The translations under genes and the position numbers were made by a program. Below the pieces are notes generated by a model. It made no database searches. It was not told the DNA's origin and worked only from the letters and a program-made list of their open reading frames with translations. This document shows positions 10,186-16,267 of a DNA stretch of 54,341 bases, in pieces. This DNA is from Thioploca sp. GTDB taxonomy: Bacteria; Pseudomonadota; Gammaproteobacteria; Beggiatoales; Beggiatoaceae. The stretch is taken from contig DAOUSL010000006.1 in NCBI GenBank assembly GCA_030627235.1, positions 1-54,341 on the forward strand, given 5' to 3'. Every line of letters starts with the position of its first letter. Position 1 is the first letter of the stretch.

Positions 10186-10824
10186 TCAATGAGGTAATGA
10201 GTGACCAATGAACTTATACCAACCACAATTTTTAACCAGTTTTAATAAACCTTCTCCATTTACTCCTAATGGTTCTATTTGTCCTTCTTTATAGAAATTT
10301 CTTAGTGCGGTATTTTCTGGTGAGTATATTATAAAATTATTTAGTTTTTCGTATTGTAATTCTTCTTTATATTTTTCAAGTTTATCTAATAAACTTTCAC
10401 GAGCAGTTTTACTAAGCTTTCTACCATTCCTTTTTAATAGCTCTTTCACAATCTCATCCAATTTTGAAGATAAAGCTAAATTGGAAATTGTTTTTTTCCA
10501 TTTAGAATAAGATTTATTGTCATGATCTAAAACATAATTTAATTTACGATTATTATCCAAATATAATTCAATTTTAATTGGTTTATCAATACTTTCATCA
10601 TCAAACCTAGAACGTGTTAATTCTGGAGAGGTAATTCTAATTCCACGATTGGCTAAAAATTCATTATCTAATTTATCTGTTTGAGCAGCCGCTACAAATG
10701 CAAGTGCTTCTAAAATATTGGTTTTACCAGAACCATTTTCCCCAATAAAAACATTAATCCGGCCAACTTCAATATCTAAATTATAAATAGATTTATAGTT
10801 TTCTATGTGGATTTTTCTTATCAT
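10186..10824 (-). pseudogene. Truncated duplicate of the AAA ATPase (5' half only)
   Basis: This 212-residue frame has the Walker A GENGSGKTN (28-36) and the N-terminal half of the ATPase at 15086-16267. It then runs into unrelated sequence after GVNGEGLLKL and stops. It lacks the signature, Walker B and H-switch, so it cannot hydrolyse ATP like its parent. The first 90 residues are almost identical to the intact copy. The coil region (about 90-150) is quite different in sequence and length, and identity returns at LQYEKLNNF. It belongs to the duplicated segment 10238-11030. Confidence 0.8.
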
Positions 10825-11134: not shown

Positions 11135-14089
11135 TTAACCACCAATCATATTCTTTAATTTACCTGTAGTTAAAACTTCTTCTAGTTTGGATGACGTTAA
11201 TGCAGATGTTCCTTTGAACGATTTAATCTCATCGATTGGTTTAATAATACCAGCTTGATTTAAATGAACCCAAATACGCTCCCAGACATCTTTTAAAACC
11301 TTAGTTTTATATTTATAATTTTCAGTTTTAAAATATATCACATAATTTGAGATCAATCTGTTACTACTTCTCTCTTGAATGCTTTCAAGCCGAACAAATG
11401 GCATAACATCTTTCACAATACCTTTATTGACTGAAAGTATTGCATTAATTAAAATATCTTCAATTTTTCTAGGATCATGCCGAGGATCAATATGGATACT
11501 ACACAGCAACCAATATTTATTATCAGGATAACTAAAATTGTGAATATCAGAACTCGACACTACACGATTGGGAATACTTAAAATATATTTCCTACGAGTT
11601 CGAATTTGAGTAACTCGCCAATTCATATCAACAATTACGCCTTCATCAAACTTGCCTATTTTAACCCAATCACCTACTCGGAAAGAACGTTCAAGACTAA
11701 GTGCAATACCAGAAAAAATATTTGTCAAGTTCATTTGGATAGCTAAACCAATAATACCAGCTAGTAAGCCGCCAGTTGCTAATAAACTAATAATTGGCCG
11801 GTTAAACACAAAAGCAATTATACCAAACAACGCTAATATATAAATAAGAGTAGAAATTAACAAACGCATAATGTTTGGAATAGAACGCCCAGTTTTTTCT
11901 TCTAAAGGCATCCATACAAACCGTTCTGCTGCTATACTAAAAAATATAGCTGGTATTATCCACCATAGTATCTCAAATATTGTTAAGATTATTTGGATTT
12001 TATTTATGTCAATTTTTATCAAAAACCATTCTCCAGCTATAATTTTACCTCCAATAATTTCAATTGAGATAAGCAAAAAAACAGTGAGAATAATCTGAAT
12101 AAACCATAGATATTTTAATTTTTTAGTGCTGATATTTTTCTTATAACTAAATAATATAAGCAATATTGTCATAACAATGGCAAATATAAAAAATTCAACT
12201 ATAAATTGAGAAGGAATTATCTCATGATAAAAATAAGCATTGTTACTAATTAAAATATTAGCATTGAATTGAGAATACTCGTATTCGTTACTATTCTTTG
12301 ATTTAAGATATTTAGGATCACCTAAAGTTTTTTCTTTAAAAATACTTTGAAAAAATATAAAGTCATCAATTGCCCAAGCTTTATCTTTAAAAAGATTAGT
12401 ATTATTTCTAGATTCTTTTAAATTATTTGTTAAATCCATACCCCAATTGTCAGTCACATAAATGATATTAGTTCGGTTTAAATTACTGTGACGAAAACTA
12501 ATTCCTAACGTATGTTGATTAGTAAAAAGTACAGAAGAACGAATATTTCCTTTAAAATAACCTTCAATTTCATAACGTAAATATTTACTATCAGCAGTTT
12601 CATTTATAACAGGTGTACCTAGTACAATTGGTTTTACAGCATTAATAAATTCAATATTTCCAAGCTCAAGTTCTTTATTTTTAGCTATAAACCACAGATA
12701 AAATTTAAGTTTATAAGTTATTGCATTGGGATCAAAATCGCTAATTTCACTAAATTGTACACCTGTATAAACCACATCATTTTTATGAAAAGATTTATTG
12801 CCAATTGAAACTTGCCCACGTTTATCAAAAGTTTTTTCATCATGAGGCATTTCTTGTAGCTGATCGTAAGCTGCAAGCAGATATTCACCTCTGTAAAGTC
12901 CCATAGAAATTGGTTTTGAAGCATTTCTTTCGTTAAAATAATTCAACCCGGTGGTTCCTTCAACAGCCTGTTTTGGAGTATTAAATTTATTAGCCAAAAT
13001 ATTTTGGATTTTTCCCCTATTCTTAGACAGCTCTTGTTCTTGAATATTAGCTTGCCTTATTGCTTCAACCAGCATGATAGCAGCATCCACAGCATAAAAT
13101 GCTTGAAATGGTAATTCTTCTTGGAATTTTTTCTTATAGTTTGAATTGAAATCATGAGCATATTTATTAGCTGTATCAAATAAAAATGGAGTTGAAACAT
13201 AGATGCCATCGGTATAAAAACCCGGTTGCTTTTGTTCTTTTGGTTCATCCTTAAAACCAGTGTAAAAAATTTTGCTTGCGTAAGAATCTGGGGCTACTAA
13301 TCGGTTTTTGATTCCAGCATCTCTAATTGACTTGACGAGTTCCACACCTTTAGGAGCTTGAGTTGCTAGAAAAATAAGACCAGCATCATCTTGATTAGTA
13401 TTCAATTCATTCACGATTTGCCTTATTCGTGCATGCTGTTTCAACTTACTAGTTTTAAGTGATAACATCCACTTACAACCATATTTTGTGCAACCATCTT
13501 TAGCATCATTTTTATTGGTTGTCTTCTCAAAAACACGAGCAAGATCAGCTCCATAAACATCATTTGTATAAATAATACTAATATTAGAATTAGGTTGTAT
13601 AAGATATTTTTTTGCGTAACCAGCTAGAAAACTGCCTTGCAAATTATTATCAAACATCATTCTGAAATACCATTCATTATTTTGAGTCAGTTCATTTAAG
13701 GAAGATGCAGGACTTATGGCAGGGATTTTATTTTTATAAATTTTTCCACCGGCTATAGAACAATCACTCATATGATGTCCAATTACGGCAATAGCATTAC
13801 TTTTTACAATTTCAATCGCTTTTTTGGTAGCTTCATTCGGATCATTTTTATCATCAATGATATCAAGTATGATTTTTTGATCACTTCTCAGTTGATTTAT
13901 GTTATCAAGATATAATTGAATAGCTTGAACCATTGACTGTCCTATTCTTTGATCATCGCCTGATAGTGGTCCCACAAATGCTATATGAATAGCATCGTCA
14001 TCTTCTTCAAAGAACTTTATTCCTACCCAAAGTGAAATAAGTAGCGAAATAGCAACTAATAGAAATAATTTTAAGAATTTTTTTTTCAT
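11135..14089 (-). CDS. Receptor-channel chimera: periplasmic binding domain plus MscS channel
   Basis: A 984-residue membrane protein. An N-terminal anchor (7-24) precedes a type-1 periplasmic ligand-binding domain of the branched-chain amino-acid receptor family (about 33-425; IHIAFVGPLSG opens the fold). Residues about 430-605 look beta-rich, with YKLKFYLWF, NIEFINAV and HTLGISFRH, a pattern reminiscent of Cys-loop channel ligand-binding domains (uncertain). Four to five transmembrane helices follow from about 633. From about 770 there is an MscS pore helix and beta domain (LLATGGLLAGIIGLAIQ, then SFRVGDWVKIG). The usual MscS role is tension-gated ion release; here ligand gating by a small molecule is inferred. 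It is transcribed away from the Toprim-like gene across a 345-base gap and sits inside the duplicated block. Confidence 0.85.
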   Translation of the reverse strand: MKKKFLKLFLLVAISLLISLWVGIKFFEEDDDAIHIAFVGPLSGDDQRIGQSMVQAIQLYLDNINQLRSDQKIILDIIDDKNDPNEATKKAIEIVKSNAIAVIGHHMSDCSIAGGKIYKNKIPAISPASSLNELTQNNEWYFRMMFDNNLQGSFLAGYAKKYLIQPNSNISIIYTNDVYGADLARVFEKTTNKNDAKDGCTKYGCKWMLSLKTSKLKQHARIRQIVNELNTNQDDAGLIFLATQAPKGVELVKSIRDAGIKNRLVAPDSYASKIFYTGFKDEPKEQKQPGFYTDGIYVSTPFLFDTANKYAHDFNSNYKKKFQEELPFQAFYAVDAAIMLVEAIRQANIQEQELSKNRGKIQNILANKFNTPKQAVEGTTGLNYFNERNASKPISMGLYRGEYLLAAYDQLQEMPHDEKTFDKRGQVSIGNKSFHKNDVVYTGVQFSEISDFDPNAITYKLKFYLWFIAKNKELELGNIEFINAVKPIVLGTPVINETADSKYLRYEIEGYFKGNIRSSVLFTNQHTLGISFRHSNLNRTNIIYVTDNWGMDLTNNLKESRNNTNLFKDKAWAIDDFIFFQSIFKEKTLGDPKYLKSKNSNEYEYSQFNANILISNNAYFYHEIIPSQFIVEFFIFAIVMTILLILFSYKKNISTKKLKYLWFIQIILTVFLLISIEIIGGKIIAGEWFLIKIDINKIQIILTIFEILWWIIPAIFFSIAAERFVWMPLEEKTGRSIPNIMRLLISTLIYILALFGIIAFVFNRPIISLLATGGLLAGIIGLAIQMNLTNIFSGIALSLERSFRVGDWVKIGKFDEGVIVDMNWRVTQIRTRRKYILSIPNRVVSSSDIHNFSYPDNKYWLLCSIHIDPRHDPRKIEDILINAILSVNKGIVKDVMPFVRLESIQERSSNRLISNYVIYFKTENYKYKTKVLKDVWERIWVHLNQAGIIKPIDEIKSFKGTSALTSSKLEEVLTTGKLKNMIGG

Positions 14090-15085: not shown

Positions 15086-16267
15086 CTAAAAATTCTTTGG
15101 TAAACCACCAATGTAGCCACGTAACATAGCTTCTGATAATTTAGTAGATTCATTTTCATAATATTTTGGTTCACTGTCAGCAGTTATACGCTTAACTCTG
15201 GTATGACCTTTTTTATTTCTGGACACGACAAATAATCGTTGCTCATCATCATTTAAATCTATACCATCTAAAATAGCCGGATTATGTGAGGTTAAAAATA
15301 CTTGCTTATCAAATTTATTAGCCAAATCTGCAATATTCTCGATAAGTTCGGTACATAATTTAGGATTTAAAGAAGCATCAATATTATCGACTGCAAAAAC
15401 AGCAGGAGTATCATCAGATACCATTAAAGCCGCATAAAATAGGATAAACAAAAAACCTTCGTTGGTACTTCTTTGGTCAAATACAGTTTTTAAAAACCGA
15501 TCTTGGATAATAACTTTTTCTTCTAATGATTGTTTGGGAATTTCCAGTGAATCAAACCAATTAAATAGTTCTAAAGTTTCTATTATTATATTTATTTTGT
15601 CTTCATCTTGAGCAATAACTTGTAATAGTTTTAATAAACCTTCTCCGTTTACTCCTAATGGCTCTATTTGGCCTTCTTTATAGAAATTTCTAAGTGCGGT
15701 ATTTTCTGGTGAGTATATTATAAAATTATTTAGTTTTTCGTATTGTAATTCTTTTTTTAATTGTTCATATTCTTTTTTTAATTGTTCAGTATCAGTTTGA
15801 ATCTTTTCTACATCTTTACTTAAATCACGGAGAATCCTTTCATGCTCCTCGGATTGACATTCTTTTTTTAATTGTTGAAATTTTTCTATAATTTTTTCTA
15901 CCTTTTTAATTGAATTATAGGGATTCAGTTTATCTGATAGCCATTTAGAATAAGCTTTATTATCATTATTTATAACAAAATTTAACTTTCTATCATCATC
16001 TAAATTTAATTTAATTATAATTGGTTTATCAATACTTTCATCATCAAACCTAGAACGTGTTAATTCTGGAGAGGTAATTCTAATTCCACGATTTGCTAAA
16101 AATTCATTGTCTAATTTATCTGTTTGAGCAGCCGCTACAAATGCAAGTGCTTCTAAAATATTGGTTTTACCAGAACCATTTTCCCCAATAAAAACATTAA
16201 TTCGGCCAACCTCAATATCTAGATTATAAATAGATTTATAGTTTTCTATGTGGATTTTTCTTATCAT
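15086..16267 (-). CDS. AAA/ABC-like ATPase of a two-gene defence-type module
   Basis: This 393-residue ATPase belongs to the RecF/OLD-like AAA_21 group. Walker A is GENGSGKTN (28-36). A Lys/Glu-rich coiled coil spans about 105-175. The C-terminal half has a Walker B-like FAVDNID, a D-loop SLNP and an H-switch TSHNPAILD. The residue after the Walker B aspartate is Asn rather than the usual catalytic Glu. I believe some relatives share this, but hydrolysis may be slow. The Toprim-like gene follows 3 bases downstream and the nifX-like gene lies 37 bases upstream. Its 5' half is duplicated at 10186-10824. A defence role is inferred from architecture, not shown. Confidence 0.75.
   Translation of the reverse strand: MIRKIHIENYKSIYNLDIEVGRINVFIGENGSGKTNILEALAFVAAAQTDKLDNEFLANRGIRITSPELTRSRFDDESIDKPIIIKLNLDDDRKLNFVINNDNKAYSKWLSDKLNPYNSIKKVEKIIEKFQQLKKECQSEEHERILRDLSKDVEKIQTDTEQLKKEYEQLKKELQYEKLNNFIIYSPENTALRNFYKEGQIEPLGVNGEGLLKLLQVIAQDEDKINIIIETLELFNWFDSLEIPKQSLEEKVIIQDRFLKTVFDQRSTNEGFLFILFYAALMVSDDTPAVFAVDNIDASLNPKLCTELIENIADLANKFDKQVFLTSHNPAILDGIDLNDDEQRLFVVSRNKKGHTRVKRITADSEPKYYENESTKLSEAMLRGYIGGLPKNF

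Follow-up and report, generated by a model that had tools for sequence, protein, structure and literature searches.

The analysed window (54,341 nt of Thioploca sp. contig DAOUSL010000006.1) contains, on its reverse strand at positions 11135-14089, a single uninterrupted open reading frame for a protein of 984 amino acids that joins a periplasmic binding protein (PBP) domain, a Cys-loop-receptor (pLGIC) type extracellular domain (ECD) and an MscS pore in one chain. This chimera gene is flanked on both sides, by an AAA ATPase gene (15086-16267, adjoining a DUF4276 gene) and by a truncated copy of this ATPase gene (10186-10824); the first ~80 residues of the two are identical, and they represent a partial duplication around the chimera gene. 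The features of the gene and the evidence for each are as follows.

11135..14089, minus strand: whole gene, chimera of PBP, pLGIC-type ECD and MscS pore (single open frame; full-length homologues)
14009..14086, minus strand: N-terminal membrane anchor or signal helix, residues 2-27 (AlphaFold helix; hydropathy peak 6-24)
12845..13993, minus strand: type I periplasmic binding protein domain, LivJ/K-like, residues 33-415 (Pfam, profile, Foldseek)
12242..12814, minus strand: predicted Cys-loop-receptor (pLGIC) type ECD, residues 426-616 (AlphaFold, Foldseek, VIA)
12488..12541, minus strand: Cys-loop/Pro-loop position, residues 517-534, VLFTNQHTLGI (column counts against 25 four-helix relatives)
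12146..12211, minus strand: membrane helix 1 after the ECD, residues 627-648 (AlphaFold model; hydropathy)
12038..12127, minus strand: membrane helix 2, residues 655-684 (AlphaFold model; hydropathy)
11891..12007, minus strand: membrane helix 3, residues 695-733 (AlphaFold model; hydropathy)
11807..11875, minus strand: membrane helix 4, residues 739-761 (AlphaFold model; hydropathy)
11690..11794, minus strand: MscS pore helix (TM3 of MscS), residues 766-800 (NCBIfam, PDB matches, model; conserved LATSGV.AMIIGLAIQ motif)
11537..11668, minus strand: MscS beta-domain, residues 808-851 (Pfam MS_channel_2nd, 5.7e-17; strands in model)
11255..11515, minus strand: MscS C-terminal alpha/beta vestibule domain, residues 859-945 (NCBIfam MscS to residue 953; model)

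The AlphaFold model of the full chain (mean pLDDT 82) arranges these elements in the order helix 2-27, binding-protein fold, beta-sandwich 426-616, five helices, and MscS beta and alpha/beta domains. Pfam located the MscS beta-domain at residues 789-853 (E 5.7e-17), NCBIfam assigned residues 676-953 to MscS (E 2.4e-13), and solved MscS/YnaI chains in the PDB matched residues 634-954 (2.4e-13), all of which, with the model, bear out the MscS pore and beta domain proposed in the initial annotation. The "four or five" membrane helices counted there resolve, by model and hydropathy, into five after the middle domain plus the N-terminal anchor. A pore helix followed by a beta-domain and an alpha/beta vestibule domain was our criterion for the MscS superfamily, and the 984-aa protein, which fulfils it, belongs to this superfamily by its pore. 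Its chain stops at residue 984 with nothing after the vestibule domain and no cyclic-nucleotide-binding (cNMP) domain. At the MscS Leu105 gate position it carries Gly778, where 41 of 49 relatives have Met, and the pore of this particular paralogue may consequently differ, being leakier or gated differently.

On the periplasmic side, Peripla_BP_6 was recognised at residues 34-348 (Pfam, E 4.8e-24) and the corresponding fold spans 33-415, in line with the branched-chain amino-acid-type binding domain previously placed at about 33-425. A profile of this domain found 4mlc/4q6b as best PDB match (8e-36), the top Foldseek rows were all of the LivJ/K type, and the best matches are LivJ/K and Atu2422-type proteins. 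The four positions that contact the alpha-amino acid in LivJ/K structures are occupied in 49 sequences by Ser108 (49/49), Thr/Ser130 (42/49), Tyr179 (47/49) and Asp268 (30/49). With the Peripla_BP_6 fold and contact residues kept in 30 to 49 of the 49 sequences, the protein meets what we required of a LivJ/K-like type I binding protein. Both the identity of the best matches and the conservation of these contacts suggest amino-acid binding; the domain probably takes a small ligand of this class, an inference from sequence alone.

Residues 430-630 gave no significant Pfam match, only sub-threshold noise such as Gp37. We modelled the middle domain with AlphaFold on an alignment (A1) of residues 425-640 from 26 relatives, and obtained a model with mean pLDDT 82 and pTM 0.76. 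When it was compared with the PDB by Foldseek, the best 50 rows were without exception members of the Cys-loop receptor superfamily (GLIC, ELIC, nicotinic, GABA-A and 5-HT3 receptors, and acetylcholine-binding protein; best E 1.8e-8), and VIA alignment to ELIC, GLIC and GABA-A gave Z values of 14.8-15.8 over 158-187 residues. The fold predicted for residues 426-616 is that of a pLGIC extracellular domain, and by the Foldseek and VIA comparisons the protein possesses the extracellular immunoglobulin-like beta-sandwich that we set as one criterion for a pLGIC. The initial annotation had read residues 430-605 as Cys-loop-receptor-like and had stated beforehand that the lack of a beta-sandwich there would refute the idea; the model delivers the sandwich.

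In a scan of named genomes, proteins related to the PBP-ECD module were encoded by 241 stretches; 78 loci were kept, from Parabeggiatoa, Halobeggiatoa, Thioploca, Thiomargarita, several Desulfobacterales, Desulfoluna spongiiphila, Leptospiraceae, Magnetococcales and Cloacimonetes. After duplicate removal, the search for the same architecture that had been proposed with the original observation yielded 101 distinct PBP-ECD-MscS proteins, distributed over more than one phylum (Thiotrichales, Desulfobacterales, Leptospiraceae, Magnetococcales and Cloacimonetes) and including, in the Desulfobacterales, one encoded in the complete genome of Desulfonema magnum. Of the genomes searched from the same family, about half contain full-length chimeras, and the genome of the window holds seven full-length paralogues. 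A C-terminal cNMP domain is present in 53 of the 101 proteins (Pfam E 1e-15 to 1e-25 in the long chimeras that were scanned).

Other proteins that are closely related in the PBP-ECD module finish with four helices, without the MscS pore (L031-L034, L116-L135). We collected 25 such sequences, and the genome of the window has five PBP-ECD genes with a four-helix pore, one of them with in-frame stops. Since PBP-I domains fused to a pLGIC have been on record since 2004 (Tasneem et al., PMC549065), as the initial annotation correctly stated, these four-helix sisters are of a known kind. Two of them, L008 and L135, carry a C-terminal SBP_bac_1 solute-binding domain, and are pLGICs framed by binding domains of two families, type I at one terminus and SBP_bac_1 at the other. 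In Desulfoluna spongiiphila, the frame just upstream of a PBP-ECD-MscS gene (L110:2749-4881) encodes a pLGIC with an FPLDK Pro-loop and an N-terminal sensor region that resembles a Cache domain in sequence; at this locus, ECD proteins of two kinds adjoin.

The A1 profile of the MscS-type ECD matched the ECDs of PBP+ECD+4TM relatives with 139-214 bits. From there, a profile covering ECD and TM of four four-helix relatives found GLIC in the PDB (E 1.5e-13), and GLIC was also the first PDB match of an ECD-only profile of the 25 sisters (E 1.5e-4). In Pfam, the four-helix relatives match Neur_chan_memb (4e-5 to 3e-4) and Neur_chan_LBD (0.002) in the right places, under the curated cut-offs. The profile of the MscS-type ECD alone found no pLGIC among PDB sequences; the link to pLGICs runs via the four-helix relatives and the fold. 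On these profile comparisons, the MscS-type ECD is related to the pLGIC ECD by homology and not by fold alone.

We then scored in 98 chimeras the ECD positions that are at least 95% conserved in the 25 four-helix sisters. The majority of these columns persist: Trp466, Asn483, Asp547, Gly550, Gly590 and Ser606 are conserved in 98/98 chimeras, and Trp572, presumably the ECD-core Trp of pLGICs (GLIC W160), in 91/98. On the other hand, the Pro-loop P-x-D-x-Q, found in 25/25 sisters, is reduced in the chimeras to Pro in 6, Asp in 5 and Gln in 1 out of 98, and the pre-M1 Arg falls from 25/25 to 2/98. Also lost are an Asp close to the N-terminal strand (6/98) and a Thr before beta9-beta10 (12/98, mostly Ser). 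Alignment to GLIC equates the Pro-loop and pre-M1 columns with P120, D122, Q124 and R192. P120 (100%), D122 (93%) and R192 (94%) belong to the small set of residues conserved throughout the pLGICs, in which an Asp-Arg salt bridge lies at the ECD/TMD interface (Jaiteh et al., PMC4795631), and a D32-R192 contact is documented in GLIC (PMC8504973). Judged from these columns, the losses that accompany the swap fall mainly on residues thought to couple the pLGIC sensor to its pore, while the ECD core and the remaining fold stay. New residues have become fixed at or next to the lost places, His526 in 73/98 and Gly529 in 92/98, so the interface seems rewritten rather than merely relaxed. In the 984-aa protein itself, F522 and N524 occupy the Pro-loop P and D positions, the universal F/Y-P-x-D-x-Q being absent, N616 stands at the pre-M1 Arg position, and five helices with an MscS pore are found where a pLGIC would have its four-helix pore (Neur_chan_memb). 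As the Pro-loop, the pre-M1 Arg and the four-helix pore were all tested and none was met, this protein is not a pLGIC.

Two trees, both from quick searches, bear on the origin of this arrangement. In the PBP+ECD tree (66 proteins), one branch with SH-aLRT 100 splits four-helix from MscS-pored proteins, and the cNMP domain comes and goes within the MscS-pored side. In the pore tree, the chimera pores form one clade (SH-aLRT 96) that groups with six of the eight bCNG pores with a support of 92 and with the full set of eight with 86, apart from the other MscS proteins in the set; of our two criteria for a bCNG channel, the chimera pores meet grouping with bCNG pores, and the 984-aa protein does not meet the other, a C-terminal cNMP domain. 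The simplest reading of these trees is that a bCNG-type pore took the place of the four-helix pore once. Because the residue loss likewise traces to one branch, the 98 chimeras count as one event seen many times and not as 98 events. In the model, beta10 (602-616) passes directly into the first membrane helix, which places the junction where pLGIC strand beta10 meets M1. That the four-helix form is ancestral is inferred from the Pro-loop proline being otherwise universal in pLGICs (PMC4795631). Helix number agrees with the side on which the C-terminus lies: four helices after the ECD leave it in the periplasm, where the SBP_bac_1 ends of the two four-helix sisters are of periplasmic type, and five leave it in the cytosol, where the cNMP domain of half of the chimeras sits. 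The PBP+ECD tree also places within the MscS-pored group a protein of Ca. Parabeggiatoa HSG14 (L096:4836-8210) that has no pore; after its PBP-ECD module come a short membrane segment and then a NACHT/AAA-like NTPase (AAA_22, 7e-4), indicative of a second output swap.

The chimera has counterparts to each of its parts among known proteins. E. coli MscS and YnaI share its pore helix, beta domain and vestibule, and YnaI also its five membrane helices, but the chimera adds the periplasmic PBP and pLGIC-type ECD and its pore is closer to bCNG than to other MscS in the tree. GLIC, ELIC and DeCLIC have the same extracellular beta-sandwich fold, in DeCLIC with extra N-terminal domains too, whereas the chimera is devoid of their four-helix pore, Pro-loop and pre-M1 Arg. 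Acetylcholine-binding protein is likewise a pLGIC ECD without a pLGIC pore, yet it is soluble, eukaryotic and pentameric, and the ECD of the chimera is wired to another pore. PBP-I-fused pLGICs (ART-LGICs of Magnetospirillum and Bradyrhizobium; PMC549065) have the N-terminal PBP-I and pLGIC ECD module in common with the chimeras, which differ in having an MscS pore in place of the four-helix pore and in lacking Pro-loop and pre-M1 Arg. Finally, bCNG channels, which combine an MscS pore with a C-terminal cyclic-nucleotide domain (Caldwell et al. 2010, cited in PMC4560390), resemble the chimeras in pore, beta and C-terminal domains, including the cNMP domain of half of them, and are their nearest pore clade, but bCNG relatives (~480-530 aa) have neither PBP nor ECD and the 984-aa protein has no cNMP domain. 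A pLGIC ECD on an MscS pore, or MscS joined to a PBP, was not found in the open-access literature; subscription journals and InterPro pages were outside the search. Structures of MscS relatives known so far are heptamers, and those of pLGICs pentamers. The open-access papers do describe PBP-pLGIC fusions and bCNG channels. Earlier pLGIC ECDs were known on their own four-helix pore or as the soluble acetylcholine-binding protein, and here one has moved, in many lineages, to an unrelated pore. The initial annotation could see neither the cNMP-bearing relatives, nor the pLGIC-pored sisters, nor the loss of pLGIC coupling residues.

We consider it likely that the chimera is a subunit of a ligand-gated MscS-type channel that arose by pore replacement. 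The domains, fold, agreement of topology, single swap and residue losses rest on the analyses above, while ligand, gating, direction of flux, stoichiometry and assembly with partners are inferred, and so is the small-molecule-gated channel suggested in the initial annotation. A PBP-I/pLGIC protein would have had its four-helix pore replaced by a bCNG/MscS-type one at the beta10-M1 junction, retaining the ECD fold, losing pLGIC-specific coupling residues and replacing part of them by new ones. In the resulting protein, the periplasmic domain would close on a small ligand, probably an amino acid, its motion would be transmitted through the pLGIC-type ECD, whose beta10 feeds directly into the first membrane helix, and movement of the ECD would alter the opening of the MscS-type pore, which may pass ions or small osmolytes in a direction that can only be inferred. 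In about half of the family, the cytosolic cNMP domain would provide a second, internal input.

MscS pores are generally tension-gated, and the role of the sensor could be limited to modulating this response: the channel would respond to tension (and to cNMP in long members), with the PBP-ECD part only setting its sensitivity, anchoring it in the periplasm or crowding its mouth, and the ECD serving as a passive stalk. This remains possible though unlikely. The membership of the pore in a tension-gated superfamily and the disappearance of the pLGIC coupling residues speak for it, but binding-pocket residues and ECD core are strongly conserved, the lost coupling loop was replaced by conserved residues (His526, Gly529) and not just relaxed, and the divergence of the binding domains among the paralogues, of which a genome can have up to seven, suggests a diversity of ligands. 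We give very little credence to a one-chain facilitator in which the PBP hands its own ligand to the MscS pore for uptake or efflux. LivJ/K-like domains do ordinarily serve transporters and MscS pores do let small osmolytes through, yet no energy-coupling part is present, and the PBP-ECD module is also found joined to a four-helix pLGIC pore and to an NTPase, which fits a many-output sensor better. That two genes were joined in the contig by an assembly or annotation error, which would have invalidated the original observation, can be practically dismissed, as can a chance join: seven intact full-length paralogues in this genome and some 100 copies in independent assemblies, among them D. magnum (L050) and Desulfoluna spongiiphila AA1 (L110), refute it.

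Under the favoured ligand-gated channel reading, the chimeras of giant sulfur bacteria and sulfate reducers form an additional candidate class of ligand-gated MscS channels, and provide a natural channel chimera with which to ask what couples receptor to pore. The PBP-ECD-pLGIC sisters in the same genome constitute matched pairs with them (same sensor, two pores), which renders coupling, the need for the Pro-loop and the domain that sets subunit number directly testable.

In 13 loci, two chimeras, one lacking and one bearing the cNMP domain, are encoded head to tail on the same strand, the short one being first in 13/13 and the gaps between the stop-to-stop open frames ranging from 25 to 1349 bp. 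The same short-then-long order is seen on contig C413 of the window's genome, and in one additional pair, L066, both frames are without the cNMP domain. The short-then-long arrangement suggests, without showing it, that short and cNMP-bearing chimeras are co-expressed and assemble together. A more speculative extension, which we put forward only tentatively, is that the chimeras are a naturally evolved receptor class whose pLGIC ECDs act on an MscS pore of seven-fold symmetry across a rewritten interface without a Pro-loop, and that in Beggiatoa-like bacteria the short and the cNMP-bearing subunits encoded side by side hetero-oligomerise and integrate three inputs: an amino acid outside the cell, a cyclic nucleotide inside it and membrane tension. 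We found no convincing recurrent gene neighbours of the chimera genes, the largest cluster of neighbouring frames looking like opposite-strand open frames of the chimera genes themselves. Some copies are split or carry in-frame stops (L056, L099 and G000:C282:889-2763), evidencing that copies decay in genomes that also hold many intact paralogues.
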